64,000 bases of DNA from Apostichopus japonicus. Its lineage: Eukaryota; Echinodermata; Holothuroidea; Aspidochirotida; Stichopodidae. Shown here piece after piece: positions 356 to 53,674 of the stretch; position 1 is the first letter of the stretch; every line of letters begins with the position of its first letter. The DNA is taken from NCBI RefSeq assembly GCF_037975245.1, contig NC_092561.1:17427001-17491000 (forward strand), written 5' to 3'. Below the pieces are notes generated by a model that did not search any database, was not told the DNA's origin, and worked only from the letters and a program-made list of their open reading frames with translations. Made by a program: the position numbers and the translations under genes.

Positions 356-10620
<10,265 letters not shown>

Positions 10621-16270: not shown

Positions 16271-16339
<69 letters not shown>

Positions 16340-16748
16340 CCAAGCCGTAAATAAGATTGGATGTGTAGCAAGTGGTATGACAGATATATAGTAATTCAAT
16401 AGAGAATAACACTATTTACGGCTTGGCTTGCCTAAAGAGTGGTTATTCTGTGTAAAATTGTCAGATTTAAAGCGTCAGGGGTGCACTCTGTACAATCATA
16501 ACACTTGGGTAATACGCCCTTCATGACAGTTATTCAAAGCCAATTTATACGCTTTAACACACCAGTAGAATCACTGGGGTCGAGTGGTACGGACTTCGGT
16601 TCGTGACGCGAAGATCCGGGGTTCGATTCCTACCTTCGCCTGATGAGTCCCAGAAGGACGAAACCGGTCGTGAAGTGGAATTTTTCTGGTGTGTTATTCT
16701 TTATTGAATTACTATATATCTGTCATACCACTTGCTACACATCCAATT

Positions 16749-16837
<89 letters not shown>

Positions 16838-16933
16838 GTCTGATGATCGCTCAACGCGTGAAACTCTGAGTAACAACTAGTAGTGTTTCACTTGGCTCAA
16901 CTATTCTCAACATATAAATACATTAATTACATA

Positions 16934-16987
<54 letters not shown>

Positions 16988-17346
16988 GGTTATAGCTAGG
17001 AGATTGTGAGTGCTGGTTAAATAAATTTGCGAAGCGTAGCGAGCGTAGCGAGCGAAGCTCTCGCATCTCACGTACAGCTAGACTTCGTTTTACACTGATT
17101 TTAGCTTACTTTTCATGATGATTTTTGCTACTTTTCAGATTTACAATTGGTAAATAACAGAAAAAGGTGACGTTATTATCATGTTTTACGGCAAGGGAAA
17201 GATAAATTTGTTACTTTTGTTGTATTTCACAAGCATTTTACTATTTTTTTGTGCCGGCCAGTGGACTGTTTATTCACTTCCAATGCCGGCCGGCAGGCGT
17301 GAGTGGCGGTTACCACCGGCCGCCGCCGGCCGGCGTGGCTATAACC

Positions 17347-17418
<72 letters not shown>

Positions 17419-17754
17419 GAAAATCGTAATGAGTTGGAAAAACAAGAACAGTGAAAAAACTTTCAGCCTCCACCGGGATTCGAACCTTCCGGGGGGCCTT
17501 CCGCTCTGTACGCGGACACCCTAACCACTAGGCTATGGACGCTGATTGTATGTCCAGAGGTTCGAAACCGGTAAGGAAGATCGTAATTCCACTGTAGGCG
17601 TTTGTCACCTGTATCGAACAATACTAGTTCTGTTTTTGGTGACATATTTTGCCTTACTCTAGAGATCAAACATGATGCTGACCAACTCGAAATCATTTGT
17701 GATTCCTAAAACCGGATCCCGAAAGAGATACTTTGAACAGACTTTATGTTAATG

Positions 17755-17809
<55 letters not shown>

Positions 17810-20800
17810 GTGGGTGTGTGGTGGGGATGTATATTTATAGTGTGAATGTGAAATATAAGTGTCTATATAACTGTCAATAAAGGCGTATTTCGCACGTGTT
17901 ACGATTGCAAAGAGTGCACCCTGATGCTATTGAATCTGACAATGTACACATCAATATTTGTTCCTTATATATTAATACATTATACCTATTAATAGAAACT
18001 GCGATAGGCTTGATAATGTAGAACTGTGGAGAATCCTGGCAGCATCAAACCAGGGATGTCTTTAGCTGCTGGCTATAGTTATTTCGTTCGGTTGTGCCCA
18101 TAGTCGTAGGAGGCGGGGGCTGGGGGGTGCCCCCAACTTAACCGAGCATTTTTGTGAAAATTCGGGAAATAAGCTTAGATTTTTCGGGCACCTACTGAAA
18201 GAAAAATAAATTGCAAGATGTACCGTAGCAAATTCTCGTTGGTAATTAATATAAAGTTCTAAACTTGACCGAATTTTACGCCATTACTAATGTAAAAGAG
18301 AGTTTTGACATAATTGGCCCTCCATGTTTTTTCTCCATCTACAAAAGACACTTCGTTGTTTACATTAGCATCCCACGGTATACTGCGCAACTTTCACGGA
18401 CCGTACGGTACACGATGTCATGCGATGTAATAACCGATGCATGCCTATATGATATGTGCATTAAGAAGTTGAACGCGCGGAGCGCTGGAAAATGTTGGCT
18501 ATATTTTTCGGGCAAGTCGTTACAGCCCCCACCCCCCCCCCCCCCATCAAATTGGTCTTCTACGCCTATGGTTGTGCCAAACCAATAAATATAGTTGAAA
18601 TTTTACTTTTAGACCTCATCTATCGTACTATTCGTGACGTATTGCGTTTCCCCTTTACTTATTTATGATAATTAGATTAACTGCAGCTTTAAAATATCGA
18701 AAAATCTCTCCAATAACTTTCGGTCTAGATTTATACTATTTTTGACATTCATTTGCATATACTCTTCGCCATAGAAGCCTTTGCTAATATCAACTGCCCG
18801 TCACCACAATATGTAGTACTTGGTAGGACAGGACGGCTTGTCTGCAGCTTTCCGAATATATTTGCCGCTGTTTTTTGGAAATACGAACAGGGAGACGAAA
18901 CGTCTTCTTTGGTGGGTCTCAAAGGTACAATAAAGGGAGGACCTGGCTATGAAAGTGGAAAATATGACATTCATTCAAATGGCTCATTAATAATCAACGA
19001 GGTGGGAGTGGAAGACGAGGGTATCTACGTGGTGATATTTATTACTTCAGAAGACAACATAGCAGATTTTAGAATCACAGTGAACGTAACAGGTGAGGGG
19101 TGCTCAGTTTTATCCACTTTAAATGTGGGAACTCATCATAATTGTAATGGAAGACTCTTCTTATCATATTTTATTTAGATTTCTGCAATTATACCGTAGG
19201 TAACGCAAACAAAAATAAATTAAAAAGAATAAACGAAAATGGTGAAAATTTGCGATACAGACTCCAGTCCAATTAGGATTTGATTGTAAAACTTTCCCAA
19301 GGTGAACCAAATATTATTACCTTGCTGTTAAAATTTTACTTGGTGTAGAGATGAATCTAGACAGACGTATTTCGCACTAATTTATCTGATTGCACTTACT
19401 CTTCACTATACAGATTACCATAGAAGCCCATTTGGCGATCTTTACTGTAAAACGCCACAATATTTGCAACTTGGCCGTGCTGGACAACTTGACTGCAAAT
19501 TTCCGGAAACTTTTCATGGGGTAATTTGGAAGCAGGAAAGGAATGGGCGGCTATATATTCTAGTGGCAAAACAAAATTTACTGAAGAATGGACAAGGTTT
19601 CATATATGGTTTATATGATATACACCCAAATGGATCACTGAAAATACACGAGGTTCAAGCAACAAACGATGGGATCTACGAGGTAACGCTGGTAACCGCA
19701 GAGGACAACATTAGACATGCAAGAGTAACCTTGGTAACAACAGGTAAAGGCGTGTTCCCTTTCATCCACTTCTGTTGTTGACAATTACCCACTTTTGTTA
19801 GGGATGTTGGGATCTAAGCATCTTTCTTTTATTTCTTGATGTAACTTTTATTTTTGTAAACTAAACTAATATCAAAATGAAACTAAGATGTTAAAAACAA
19901 AAATTCAATTTAAGATACAACACAGATCTTATTGATTATACTATATGGAGTGTTTCTTGTGTAGTGAATTTTTTACCTACTCTTCATTATAGTGTTGTCG
20001 AAACAGAATCACCCATACATAAACCTATGTGGAGAAGAGGATCACTGTTCTCGTCGATATGATCCAGGAACCCCTATTTACTGCTCATACAATCACTCCA
20101 GACCTGCTGTTAACCTCAACTGGTACATAAGACACCCTAGTAATGACACGTTACTGCGAGCCTCATTCAAATACGAGGCAGATTCGAACGAAACATTTTC
20201 GTCGATTTCGAGATTAAACATGGAGGACTTTGCAGTTGGTAGCTTTGTGTTTCTCGTCTGCGTTGCTGATGGACCACCATTGACATTTGATACCATAGAA
20301 AGCTGGTTGATATTGGATACATCCCCGGAAATCTACAAAATTTCGAACGATGTAAGCATTTCAAAGATGGACGTCCAATTTCAAGGAAATACAAGGCTCT
20401 CTTGCAGTGAAATACAGCCAACCCTTGAAGCTGTTATTTGGTTATCTGTGGATTTGACAGGTTTAACATCAACTTTAGTATATTCCATGTATCACACACC
20501 GCACGGACGGTACTATACAGATTCCAACGTTTACTTTGATGACAAAAGTACTGACATTGAGTTATTCCGTGTAACTCGCGAAAACGAAAAGATATACGTG
20601 TGTCTTTCTACCAACGGTACTCATACTGAAGTAATGGCTGCATTTCAACTAGCAGTATATGGTAAGAAAACCGAATGACATTTCAATTAACAACATTATT
20701 GTTAACTATTAACCGAAGAATGTTTCTGTACAGCAAAGTCAGATTGACGTGACACTCTTCCAAAAGGGGTGATATGTTTATAATCTATAACTTTTCCTAT

Positions 20801-23800
20801 AATTTTTTCATCATTATAGTCAATTTGTTCTATCCGGTATAGGTTTCTCGCTATTTGCCAGTTTATGCTTACTGTATGTCCTCCTTGAGTACCCATGTTA
20901 AACATGCGTCGCTTCTTCAATCACAAGTAGAAGGTTATGCAATTTATTAAAATAATGAATTATAAATGCAAATTGCTTTACTATTGTCTTTCAAGTGTCC
21001 AATCCAAGGTAAAGTTATTTCAAAGCTGTTTACATTGCTGGATGTGTTAATAACATAATAACATACTTTGTAAAGAAAGCAACGCAATATATAGCATGGG
21101 CACGAAAACCAAACTTGATCCACTCTCAATCCAAGTTCCATTACATTGAGAATATAACCTTATGATCACGATGATGTTACGTCACCAATGACTTGGAATG
21201 AAAATAGATACTGCACATGATTCTGGGATAAGCAGCAAGGAATCAACATATTTTATAAATATAATTGTTATTTGCACAGTGGTATAGGGACAAACACATA
21301 TCACGACAACAAAGTGAAAACATTGGTTCTTCTGCTGTCAAAACTAGAATTTCAAGTAAGAATTGCCTATAGTCAAGCACTTCGTCGTCGTCGCATTTGC
21401 TCTAACAATTCCTCTCCCATTCGCCATACAGATGCTTTGGAACGAAAATGGTGAAAATTGCGATACAGACTCCAGCCCATATAGGATTTAATTGTAAAAC
21501 TTTCCCAGGGTGAACCAAATATTATTACCTTGCTGTTAAAATTTTACTTGGTGTAGAGATGAATCTAGACAGACGTATTTCGCACTAATTTATCTGATTG
21601 CACTTACTCTTCACTATACAGATTACTGTAGAAGCCCATTTGGCGACTTTTACTGTAAAACGCCTCAATATTTGCAACTTGGCCGTGTTGGACAACTTCA
21701 CTGCAAATTCCCGGAAACCTTTAATGCGGTAACTTGGAAGCAGGAAAGAAATGGACGGCTATATAGTCTAGTGGTACTACAAAATTCACTGAAGAATGGA
21801 CAAGGTTTCATATATGGTTTATATGATATGCACCAAAATGGATCACTGATAATACAAAACGTTGAAGCAACTAACGATGGGATCTACGAAGTAACGCTGG
21901 TAACTACAGAGGACAACATAATACCCGCAAGAGTAATCTTGGTAACAACAGGTAAAGACTTGTTCCCTTCAATCCACTTCTCTTGTTGACAATTATCCAC
22001 TTTTGTTTGGGATGTTAGGATTTAAGCATCTTGCTTTTATTTCCTTAATGTAACTTATAGTTTGGTAAACTAACTTAATATCATAATGCAACTAACATGT
22101 TTTAAAAACAAAAATTCAATAAGATACAACACAGCTATATATAGTATGCTATATGGAGTGCTTCCTGTGTCGTGATGTTTTTTACTTACCCTTCATTATA
22201 GTGTTGTCGAAACAGAATCACCCATACATAAACCTATGTGGAGAAGATGATCACTGCTCTCGTCGATATGATCCAGGAACCCCTATTTACTGCTCATACA
22301 ATCACTCCAGACCTGCTGTTAACCTCAACTGGTACATAAGACACCCTAGTAATGACACGTTACTGCGAGCCTCATTCAAATACGAGGCAGATTCGAACGA
22401 AACATTTTCGTCGATTTCGAGATTAAACATGGAGGACTTTGCAGTTGGTAGCTTTGTGTTTCTCGTCTGCGTTGCTGATGGACCACCATTGACATTTGAT
22501 ACCATAGAAAGCTGGTTGATATTGGATACATCCCCGGAAATCTACAAAATTTCGAACGATGTAAGCATTTCAAAGATGGACGTCCAATTTCAAGGAAATA
22601 CAAGGCTCTCTTGCAGTGAAATACAGCCAACCCTTGAAGCTGTTATTTGGTTATCTGTGGATTTGACAGGTTTAACATCAACTTTAGTATATTCCATGTA
22701 TCACACACCGCACGGACGGTACTATACAGATTCCAACGTTTACTTTGAAGACAAAAGTACTGACATTGAGTTATTCCGTGTAACTCGCGAAAACGAAAAG
22801 ATATACGTGTGTCTTTCTACCAACGGTACTCATACTGAAGTAATGGCTGCATTTCAACTAGCAGTATATGGTAAGAAAACCGAATGACATTTCAATTAAC
22901 AACATTATTGTTAACTATTAACCGAAGAATGTTTCTGTACAGCAAAGTCAGAATGACGTGACACTCTTCCAAAAGAGGTGATATGTTTATAATCTATAAC
23001 TTTTCCTATAATTTTTCCATCATTATAGTCAATTTGTTCTATCCGGTATAGGTTTCTCGCTATTTGCCAGTTTATGCTTACTGTATGTCCTCCTTGAGTA
23101 CCCATGTTAAACATGCGTCGCTTCTTCAATCACAAGTAGAAGGTTATGCAATTTATTAAAATAATGAATTATAAATGCAAATTGCTTTACTATTGTCTTT
23201 CAAGTGTCCAATCCAAGGTAAAGTTATTTCAAAGCTGTTTACATTGCTGGATGTGTTAATAACATAATAACATACTTTGTAAAGAAAGCAACGCAATATA
23301 TAGCATGGGCACGAAAACCAAACTTGATCCACTCTCAATCCAAGTTCCATTACATTGAGAATATAACCTTATGATCACGATGATGTTACGTCACCAATGA
23401 CTTGGAATGAAAATAGATACTGCACATGATTCTGGGATAAGCAGCAAGGAATCAACATATTTTATAAATATAATTGTTATTTGCACAGTGGTATAGGGAC
23501 AAAAACATATCACGACAACAAAGTGAAAACATTGGTTCTTCTGCTGTCAAAACTAGAATTTCAAGTAAGAATTGCCTATAGTCAAGCACGTCGTCGTCGT
23601 CGCATTTGCTCTAACAATTCCTCTCCCATTCGCCATACAGATGCTTTGGAAAAATACCTTACTGACAGGGGCCAAAGTGCCAGAAGGGTGCGTGAAGCCA
23701 TTCAGAGAGTCCGCTCCCTTTCCAGATCATCTACTTTGGCAGTGAAGAACAAAAGGGACGAGATTGCGACAATAAGCTCCCCCTGGTTGTTACTTTCCAC

Positions 23801-52300: not shown

Positions 52301-53674
52301 AAACCTCCAACTGACTTACCTTGTGTGTACAGAGAGGCCTTGCCAGCCTTATACTGGGACACTTTGTGTGTCTGGTGCCTCTTGCACTTTTTGCAGTACG
52401 TTCGTCGTGTCTTTGGTACATTCACCTGAAAAAAATAAAGATGAGAACTAGTTTCTATTTCTGAGTAGGTTTAATAAGTGGGGTGGGGGGTTGGGGGAAT
52501 TAACTTCAAGATGGAGAACATTTTGAGCAAGAATAGTTTAGAATACAGCAGACTCCTAAAACCTTATTACTAGGCCTAAAAGTAATGCTACTCGCTGAAC
52601 CTCAGCATAGAGGGCAATGGAAAATATAAAATATGTATCATTTGACGATCTTGAATATATGGATAACAGGTACAACTTTCTGATGTTGCATTTCTTGTAT
52701 AGCCTAACCATAGGCTAGCCCTATATCTATTGTGCCAATAGAGTACTAGTAAATGTCCTAAAGTAGACCTTGCAGCAGGTAGCCTAGGTAAAACAGTTCA
52801 CTGCAGCAAGCCAAGTTAATTTTGGGCCCCACCCCTGGAAAAGTTGTCTACTCTCGGATTCCATACAAAAGATGTAGGCCTACCAATCGAATGTTTTTAT
52901 GCAGCTCATCACACACACTACACTGTAGTGTAACTTGGCCAAAGTGGCTATTCTTATGACTAGTTGTAAGAATAATTTCCGACTACGCATGCGCAGTTGC
53001 TATTTGCATGACTAGGAGTACTATCTTTACGACGAGGAGTAACAATAATTTGCGGTTAGGGTAAGGGTTAGGATTGAGGATTAGGGTTATGTTTAGGGTT
53101 AGGGTTACCCCTACTACATGCGCAGTTGTTTATTTACTTTACTGCGCTTGAATTTGCCTTTGTCGTAAGAATATAAATAATTGTTACGACTCGTCGTAAG
53201 AATAGCCACGGCCTAATTTGGCGACCCATTTATGTGCACAGGAGTGCATAGGCCTAAGTCGACAAGTGTGGGTCTCGCCAAGTTTTAGTGGGAGCCTGGT
53301 CTGCTTAGAGTACCACTGAGGTCTTAACAATGAAAACAAAAGGTATTACATTGCTTCATAGGAAATCTCTTTTAAACGTAATCATATCCTTTTACTTTTG
53401 TGTAACAAACAGTCTAGCCTATCCGTGTTTGACAGCAATAGAAATTGTTTAACACAAAATACTTAAGGAGTAGATTCGCGAATTAAGCACGATCACGGGG
53501 AGTTTCTTTTACTTTTCGATCTTTTAAGATAAATTTAAAAGGAGAAATATGGCACAAATAAACAAAATGATCTTTAGCTATAATTTTTGTAACATTTGGG
53601 CAGCTTACTATGGACGATTATAAGGATGTGCCACGATTTGATATTTAAGATTATATGTAACAACTGCTCACCAT
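49385..53674 (-). CDS. RPL36A: 60S ribosomal protein L36a/L44 (eL42)
   Basis: Minus-strand exons 53674-53672 (ATG only), 52425-52320, 51465-51398, 50435-50319 and 49405-49385 (stop at 49387-49385) join in frame to 104 residues. The protein starts [15 protein letters not shown], has the zinc-binding cysteines (CKKC, CAEC) and continues with [26 protein letters not shown] and GQMIQF. eL42 sits at the E-site of the large ribosomal subunit. The 106-residue human protein has a two-residue-longer region around the second cysteine pair. The intron directly after the ATG (ATG/GTGAGC) and a pyrimidine-rich leader fit a housekeeping ribosomal gene. Introns hold a MITE at 52944 and a tandem repeat at 49705. 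Confidence 0.95.
49705..49835. repeat. 32-bp tandem repeat, four copies
   Basis: Unit about ACTTCAACAATACAATGAAT plus ATTAATGTCAT, four nearly identical copies in the last RPL36A intron. Confidence 0.9.
52944..53209. mobile_element. MITE with telomere-like TTAGGG core, in RPL36A intron 1
   Basis: The ends GTGGCTATTCTTATGAC and (reverse) GTGGCTATTCTTACGAC form terminal inverted repeats. GGCCAAA (52937-52943) and GGCCTAA (53210-53216) are a probable 7-bp target duplication. The centre (53055-53107) is a run of TTAGGG-like repeats. Confidence 0.75.

Follow-up and report, generated by a model that had tools for sequence, protein, structure and literature searches.

We analyzed a 64,000-nucleotide stretch of the Apostichopus japonicus genome (C1:17427001-17491000; here called the window). 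It holds one full copy of a 338-nt unit, together with an inverted piece of the same unit, between TA microsatellites (Table 1). The unit carries a type I hammerhead ribozyme motif and a tRNA-like part, and a second element with a hammerhead-like motif adjoins the right-hand microsatellite. Positions in the unit are given as q numbers (window position minus 16412), with 16413-16750 of the window serving as the ruler. In the window, 16413-16750 is not overlapped by any open reading frame of at least 120 aa, counted from stop to stop.

Other features lie farther away. The minus strand bears a retrotransposon, apparently a LINE, at 2012-5564 (RVT_1, E = 6.5e-35), and the plus strand bears repeated open frames resembling Ig-domain exons, in two near-duplicate sets, at 18729-22887. 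A TA-flanked tRNA-like sequence occupies the minus strand at 17465-17542 (34.7 bits, which is above the Rfam cut-off; tRNA-Cys according to ARAGORN). Sequence similar to it follows the 338-nt element at another locus (L001), and it is perhaps another SINE. Mirrored ends (CAGGGTTATAGC ... GCTATAACCCTG) between TA arrays at 16986-17349 resemble those of a small TA-targeting DNA transposon, and a short telomere-like GGTTAG array is found at 53054-53107.

Table 1. Features of the hammerhead locus in the window and coding fragments beside related copies at two other loci.
Feature	Coordinates	Strand	Basis
(TA)n array left of element	16273..16338	.	Tandem Repeats Finder, 33 copies
Inverted partial retrozyme copy (about q279-338, then q1-16), head-to-head with full copy	16338..16412	-	Complementary arms; blast
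Full retrozyme monomer, 338 nt (q1-q338)	16413..16750	+	q338 joins q1 directly in other copies
CACACCAG, left side of stem enclosing tRNA-like part and hammerhead	16558..16565	+	Inverted repeat, fold
A box (GGGTCGAGTGG; most copies TGGTCGAGTGG)	16577..16587	+	Consensus scan; majority of copies
B box (GGTTCGATTCC), overlaps distal stem I	16620..16630	+	Consensus scan
Type I hammerhead ribozyme	16634..16675	+	Rfam Hammerhead_1, 36.2 bits
TTTTT, possible pol III terminator (q269-273)	16681..16685	+	T runs counted in monomer
CTGGTGTG, right side of enclosing stem	16686..16693	+	Inverted repeat, fold
UA-rich place 1, 3' end of many copies (q297-309)	16709..16719	+	40/71 occurrences, 38-mer sample
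UA-rich place 2 (q321-338), where other copies have their 3' end; (TA)n next in window	16742..16750	+	27/71 occurrences, 38-mer sample
(TA)n array between retrozyme and second hammerhead element	16751..16834	.	Tandem Repeats Finder, 42 copies
Hammerhead-like motif of family 2 (second in window), cleavage predicted after 16872	16833..16879	+	Motif scan; 24 aligned copies
Family 2 repeat copy, bears second hammerhead	16833..16938	+	At least 48 genome matches (40 of 804 candidates scored)
Older retrozyme fragment (q37-121), 83% identical	17867..17950	-	blast
Coding fragment, Penelope-like look, upstream of family 2 hammerhead	L029:7552-8376	+	Likeness of fragments
Coding fragment, Penelope-like look, upstream of family 2 hammerhead	L030	minus	Likeness of fragments

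The initial annotation had read the core blocks of a near-consensus hammerhead at 16634-16675, and the blocks are found there. In an Rfam covariance search of the window, the whole Hammerhead_1 model (RF00163) aligned to exactly this interval with a score of 36.2 bits (E = 2.1e-5), above the gathering score of 34 bits. A match to Hammerhead_HH9 at 16623-16690 (37.4 bits) fell under that model's own cut-off of 52. A strict motif scan requiring all three stems returned two hammerheads in the window, 16634-16675 and 16833-16879, both on the same strand. The annotation had named the first of them; the second, like the 338-nt monomer and the inverted piece to its left, was absent from it. The same scan returned none on either strand of 60 simulated 64-kb windows (first-order Markov), in line with the annotation's view that such a motif would very rarely arise by chance. 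C17 is base 16669, which places the predicted cut between 16669 and 16670 (q257/q258), as had been proposed. Stem I extends past a UAC/U internal loop, where 16625-16630 pairs with 16677-16682. As judged from its sequence, 16634-16675 is a genuine hammerhead motif for which self-cleavage is predicted. Elsewhere in the window, 77% of the 26 bases at 17554-17579 match part of the hammerhead core (16650-16675), through chance or as a dead remnant.

To characterize the copies of this element, we searched the A. japonicus genome (671,581,487 bases in 35 contigs). RF00163 matched at least 59 places at E ≤ 0.001, 50 of them above the cut-off (74 of 66307 candidates scored), and the same profile search gave a match in none of 14 control genomes. 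The sequence around the hammerhead (16556-16696) had at least 45 matches (40 of 1081 candidates scored). The 38-mer q258-295, which immediately follows the predicted cut, had exact occurrences at 102 places, and its reversed control had none. All three counts are lower bounds for the family. Related copies with a conserved core, which the annotation had anticipated, are thus numerous: the core was intact in 42 of the 54 copies that cover it and broken in the other 12, these copies not having been selected for it. Divergence at core sites was 3.0%, versus 5.1% at other sites, a small difference. Two-sided changes were seen in five stem pairs, compared with 1.7 in shuffled alignments and three to five in slid controls, among copies picked by Rfam; the covariation signal in the stems is weak, and the way in which the copies were chosen accounts for part of it.

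The copies themselves revealed what kind of repeat this is. A plain SINE of 140 nt was rejected on inspection of the Rfam loci, in which sequence runs on into the next unit; among these 59 loci, sequence 3' of the hammerhead can run into sequence standing 5' of it. A q338/q1 junction with 0 to 2 nt between units was present in 16 of 69 loci, with 0 nt in 11, and 13 junction-bearing loci remain once repeats (L039/L041/L042 and L066/L067) are removed. A query spanning the junction had at least 40 genome matches (40 of 580 candidates scored), and two genome places carry two junctions each, 341 and 339 nt apart. Direct spacings of copies were 341, 341, 339, 340, 340, and 352 nt, of which 340, 340, and 352 come from the 38-mer list. 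In the 38-mer sample (see below), 13 of 71 rows, from 10 loci, exceed one unit in length. No LTR was seen in the copies inspected. The seamless direct tandem of 338-nt units therefore marks a non-LTR retrozyme and not merely a SINE-sized piece. The annotation's picture of a hammerhead within a small repeat holds for the repeat and its many copies, but not for the SINE size, the unit being a tandem-forming monomer of 338 nt. Several near-identical copies also occur at G000:C1:12105673-12119566, in a local array of larger repeats (L039-L042).

We consider it likely that 16413-16750 is a full-length, non-autonomous, non-LTR retrozyme, the RNA of which carries a type I hammerhead and passes through a circular or tandem cycle at TA repeats. 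The motif, the 338-nt period, the seamless junctions, the copy ends, the TA flanks, and the orientation bias described below are direct observations. This reading is much surer than the choice of a partner enzyme, or that between a circle and uncut RNA, both of which are taken up below.

The annotation had also noted a tRNA-like A/B box directly upstream of the hammerhead. Both boxes were recovered: the A box matches 10 of 11 consensus bases, with the first base deviating in the window copy, and the B box matches 11 of 11. Their starts, 16577 and 16620, have the proper spacing for a tRNA-derived SINE, and such pairs of boxes appeared 0.0 times per window in 100 simulated windows. Divergence was 3.0% in the A box and 4.5% in the B box, compared with 5.1% at other tRNA-like sites, a conservation that says little because the copies are young. 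The TTTTT at q269-273 is the sole run of four or more T in the 338-nt monomer, and by general rule we take it to be a candidate pol III terminator. Pol III starting from the A box would presumably terminate at this run, having passed the hammerhead but before a whole unit was complete and before either of the places where copies end; templates would therefore come from read-through or from another polymerase. The boxes are perhaps a pol III promoter of the retrozyme, to judge by their apparent match to one. A pol III promoter has reportedly been described in Sm-alpha as well, in work attributed to Ferbeyre in 1998.

We then considered how the RNA might fold. A 17-nt inverted repeat (16555-16571/16680-16696) underlies the stem around the tRNA-like part and the hammerhead. 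The segment 16550-16700 folds more stably than shuffled sequences (z = -3.2; 1/200), and the fold of the 338-nt circle is modestly better than that of its shuffles (z = -2.2; 3/200). In 15 of 25 copies, the predicted best fold keeps the native hammerhead (at least 8 of 10 tested pairs). The window copy keeps 0 of 10, its hammerhead being buried in the predicted fold because the tRNA-like arm pairs with 29 of the 42 hammerhead bases. The idea that this arm blocks the hammerhead across the family was rejected, the effect being seen in the window copy and not in most of the 25 copies. According to these models, ribozyme activity in this context is probably poor for the window copy and probably good for the family.

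Loci chosen with Rfam favor good hammerheads, and hence we drew a second sample by the 38-mer q258-295 alone, which sits wholly after the cut. It was drawn from 100 of the 102 places and covers 60 loci, out of 71 stretches selected, with 71 occurrences in all, including six repeats of other loci (L113, L133, L136, L139, L140, and L148); L146 and L148 overlap loci of the first sample. By construction, 3' ends before q295 cannot appear in it. Two UA-rich places, which read ACUAUAUAU and UUCUUAU and lie about 31 nt apart, account for the 3' ends of 67 of the 71 occurrences, and the remaining four reach the edge of the sequence examined. In 54 of these 67, a (TA)4 run starts no more than 6 nt from the 3' end; a run that finishes equally close to the 5' end is seen in 8 of 71. 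The simple reading of UA-rich 3' places with adjoining TA repeats is that TA ends of cut DNA served as primers. In the 59 Rfam loci, the earliest 3' end was at q263 and none lay at q269-273, the TTTTT. Inserts running from a pol III start to a terminator or an A-rich tail, as expected of a SINE, were not found in either sample; in the 38-mer sample, which can show ends from q295 onward, 3' ends lie 24 to 69 nt beyond TTTTT, and templates therefore ran past it.

The 5' ends were informative about the template. Both samples have many single, dispersed copies whose 5' ends vary in position. In neither the 59 Rfam loci nor the 38-mer sample do 5' ends concentrate sharply at the cut or near a pol III start, while 7 of the 59 Rfam loci begin at q144-152. 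Of the 71 occurrences in the 38-mer sample, 66 continue through the predicted cut for 8 nt or more on its upstream side; in 11 the sequence goes more than 257 nt past it, and in 6 at least 338 nt. Copying of a cut RNA from q307 would halt after 50 nt at q258, which is mostly not what we see; the bond was thus intact in the template. Mostly, then, the template was either a closed circle or RNA still uncut at the time of copying. The other five occurrences end 1, 3, 3, 6, and 7 nt from the cut. Evenly spread ends would give fewer, and this slight excess may leave room for some cut templates.

Many copies meet an inverted partner, and nearly always in one orientation. Abutting inverted pairs in the 38-mer sample were head-to-head in 25 cases (21 after removing repeats) and tail-to-tail in none, and these counts were the same with a gap limit of 30 or 100. 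The first sample gave 24 to 0, or 16 to 0 without one repeat and without L083-L090, which had been taken partly for being pairs. Tail-to-tail pairs would enclose TA arrays and may be missed with short gap limits; unaffected by this is the count of pairs under 700 bp in the 38-mer list, with 11 head-to-head, 3 direct, and 1 tail-to-tail. At the joints of the 25 pairs, 1 to 6 nt are shared in 14, 2 are flush, and 9 contain 1 to 24 extra nt. The outer end of the inverted partner is at q307 in 9 pairs, at q330-338 in 13, and at q312, q278, and q92 once each. The window provides an example, with 16338-16412 inverted and 16413-16750 forward; the inverted piece comprises a 57-nt arm that is 98% complementary and a 16-nt arm that is 100% complementary. 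This orientation bias suggests the pattern left by priming from both DNA ends. In L1, such priming is called twin priming.

The second hammerhead in the window belongs to a different repeat (family 2). Rfam did not report 16833-16879 up to an E value of 5, because stem II begins with a U-U mismatch. This mismatch, at 10.1/11.1 at the base of the stem, is conserved in family 2. Among 24 aligned copies (26 extracted copies minus 3 with gaps, plus the window copy), position 17 is T in 14, A in 9, C in 1, and G in 0, in agreement with the hammerhead rule that position 17 is not G. Family 2 copies, too, have TA at their ends, and the end lies at one of two alternative sites: the near one in 15 copies (L027 being doubtful) and the far one in 5, with 1 copy ending elsewhere. 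Pairs of this family at 26 loci are head-to-head in 4 cases and tail-to-tail in none. Both families occur at the same TA loci, like the window, in L032, L045, L048, L069, L078, L014, and L027.

In two of three loci inspected (L029 and L030, not L031), family 2 adjoins upstream coding fragments that are alike at 90%. Going by their motifs, we take these fragments to be the putative end of a Penelope-like protein. The L030 fragment matched Pfam RVT_1 below the cut-off (E = 0.0045; one locus), Pfam gave no match for the presumed endonuclease part, which in a Penelope-like parent would be of GIY-YIG type, and Pfam and PDB searches with the presumed Penelope-like proteins returned nothing firm. A structure model of one of these proteins was too poor to inform (pLDDT 39). 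On sequence grounds, we slightly favor the view that the partner enzyme of the retrozyme is that of the Penelope-like element represented next door by family 2.

These observations can be arranged into a possible cycle. RNA would be made from tandem retrozyme copies, perhaps by pol III through the A/B boxes. The hammerhead would cut this tandem RNA into 338-nt units, and the units would be closed into circles. An enzyme made elsewhere, probably supplied by a Penelope-like element carrying the neighboring hammerhead family (16833-16938), would cut DNA at a TA microsatellite, and the TA ends of the cut DNA would prime on UA-rich places of the retrozyme RNA. With priming possible at both DNA ends, head-to-head junctions between two copies of unequal length would be frequent. 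Within this scheme, cleavage, circles, promoter use, and the Penelope-like partner are predictions drawn from the genome. In its fullest form, which we put forward tentatively and think may well prove wrong in some part, the element is a retrozyme that has captured a pol III promoter of tRNA type. A Penelope-like enzyme would copy its circular RNA, with priming from the two ends of a TA microsatellite that has been cut; these TA ends would anneal to the two UA-rich sites, built into the RNA as imitations of the two Penelope-like start sites.

The most serious alternative is that the template is an uncut linear multimer, that no circle is involved, and that the hammerhead plays no role in insertion, as for the anole Penelope-like element in vitro. 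The 66 of 71 occurrences that cross the cut are what this account predicts, as are the six rows reaching at least 338 nt upstream, which require either that two cut sites stayed intact or that copying went round more than once, and unprocessed RNA was indeed the main substrate of the anole enzyme in vitro (PMC11167929). Against it stand the hammerhead core, kept in most copies that were not chosen for it, and the circles formed by metazoan retrozymes elsewhere, as described in the retrozyme sections of PMC7229834. Genome scars alone cannot choose between the two. On balance we lean toward a circle as the template, and regard uncut RNA as a possibility to be taken seriously if a less probable one.

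A tRNA-derived SINE with an incidental hammerhead, mobilized by a LINE by way of the pol III transcript, would explain the exact B box, the A box, the run of five T, and the tRNA-like arm, as well as the common dispersed single copies with variable 5' ends. It does not fit the direct tandem junctions, the copies longer than a unit, the whole unit of 338 nt, or the 3' ends of templates that ran beyond the terminator, and no sharp cluster of 5' ends marks a pol III start in either sample, although 7 of the 59 Rfam loci do begin at q144-152; we judge it unlikely. Far less probable still are two further readings. The arms in the window, 57 nt long, 98% complementary, and flanked by TA arrays, look like the terminal inverted repeats of a cut-and-paste (MITE-like) transposon targeting TA, a candidate that was rejected when arms proved variable and tandem junctions were found: arm extent varies by locus, inner ends fall anywhere in the monomer, the joints are irregular, and many copies have no inverted arm. 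That the hammerhead is a chance or dead motif would agree with the predicted misfolding of the window copy and the broken cores in 12 of 54 sampled copies. It is hard to square with the Rfam match above cut-off, the 60 simulated windows free of motifs, the 59 or more genome places against 0 of 14 control genomes, the native fold in 15 of 25 copies, and the 42 intact cores.

The preferred retrozyme reading places the element in known company. Metazoan non-LTR retrozymes, as presented in the retrozyme sections of PMC7229834, have a type I hammerhead, a unit of 170 to 400 nt, direct tandems, and neither LTR nor coding region; circular RNA has been reported in tissue, and a target-primed circular template and a Penelope-like partner have been proposed as a hypothesis (Cervera and de la Pena 2020). 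The A. japonicus element resembles them in its 338-nt unit, its spacings of 339 to 352 nt, its single type I hammerhead, its direct tandems, and its lack of LTR and ORF. Unlike those described in that source, many of its copies are single or shortened, lie between TA repeats, and form head-to-head pairs. It further differs in its tRNA-like A/B box, the words pol III being absent from the main text of PMC7229834, and copy ends were tested more widely here than in the retrozyme sections of that paper. Plant LTR retrozymes have LTRs and type III hammerheads, as stated in PMC7229834. The A. japonicus element shares with them a hammerhead and a non-autonomous nature (PMC4918200), but it has no LTR and its hammerhead is type I.

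The initial annotation had likened the layout to that of Sm-alpha. Sm-alpha (W36.2) of Schistosoma mansoni is a SINE-like repeat with an active type I hammerhead, as stated in the relevant part of PMC8490949. The A. japonicus element, too, is a repeat with a type I hammerhead. The comparison is fair as one of layout but does not carry over to a SINE-sized unit.

Other parallels point toward Penelope-like elements. Both strands are cut and extended by the anole Penelope-like enzyme, which has a preference for AT-rich DNA, initiates within its RNA at two sites 30 to 40 bp apart, and can dispense with hammerhead cleavage (PMC11167929). The two alternative 3' ends of both A. japonicus families are like the optional 30- to 40-bp tail of the anole element (PMC11167929). 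Family 2, beside Penelope-like coding fragments in two of three loci, is like the Penelope-like hammerheads in the portion of PMC7761336 concerned with them, whereas it differs from the minimal ones there in its fuller stem III and its conserved U-U at 10.1/11.1.

Animal retrozymes, their circles, and Penelope-like partners as a hypothesis were thus already known. Within the open-access literature, outside which most subscription papers lie, we found no paper that connects hammerhead retrozymes to a promoter of tRNA type or to TA-primed insertion from both ends. For the hypothesis on how retrozymes re-enter DNA, and by whose enzyme, the A. japonicus family allows a test from genome sequence alone: its members are numerous and of recent origin, they have defined landing sites and consistent TA flanks, each insertion allows the cut site to be traced, and the bias in orientation points to priming at both DNA ends. 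If the A/B boxes work, they would also answer which polymerase makes retrozyme RNA, at least for this family. If the proposed cycle is true, the head-to-head scars would record a both-strand reaction that has so far been seen only in vitro, for one Penelope-like enzyme.
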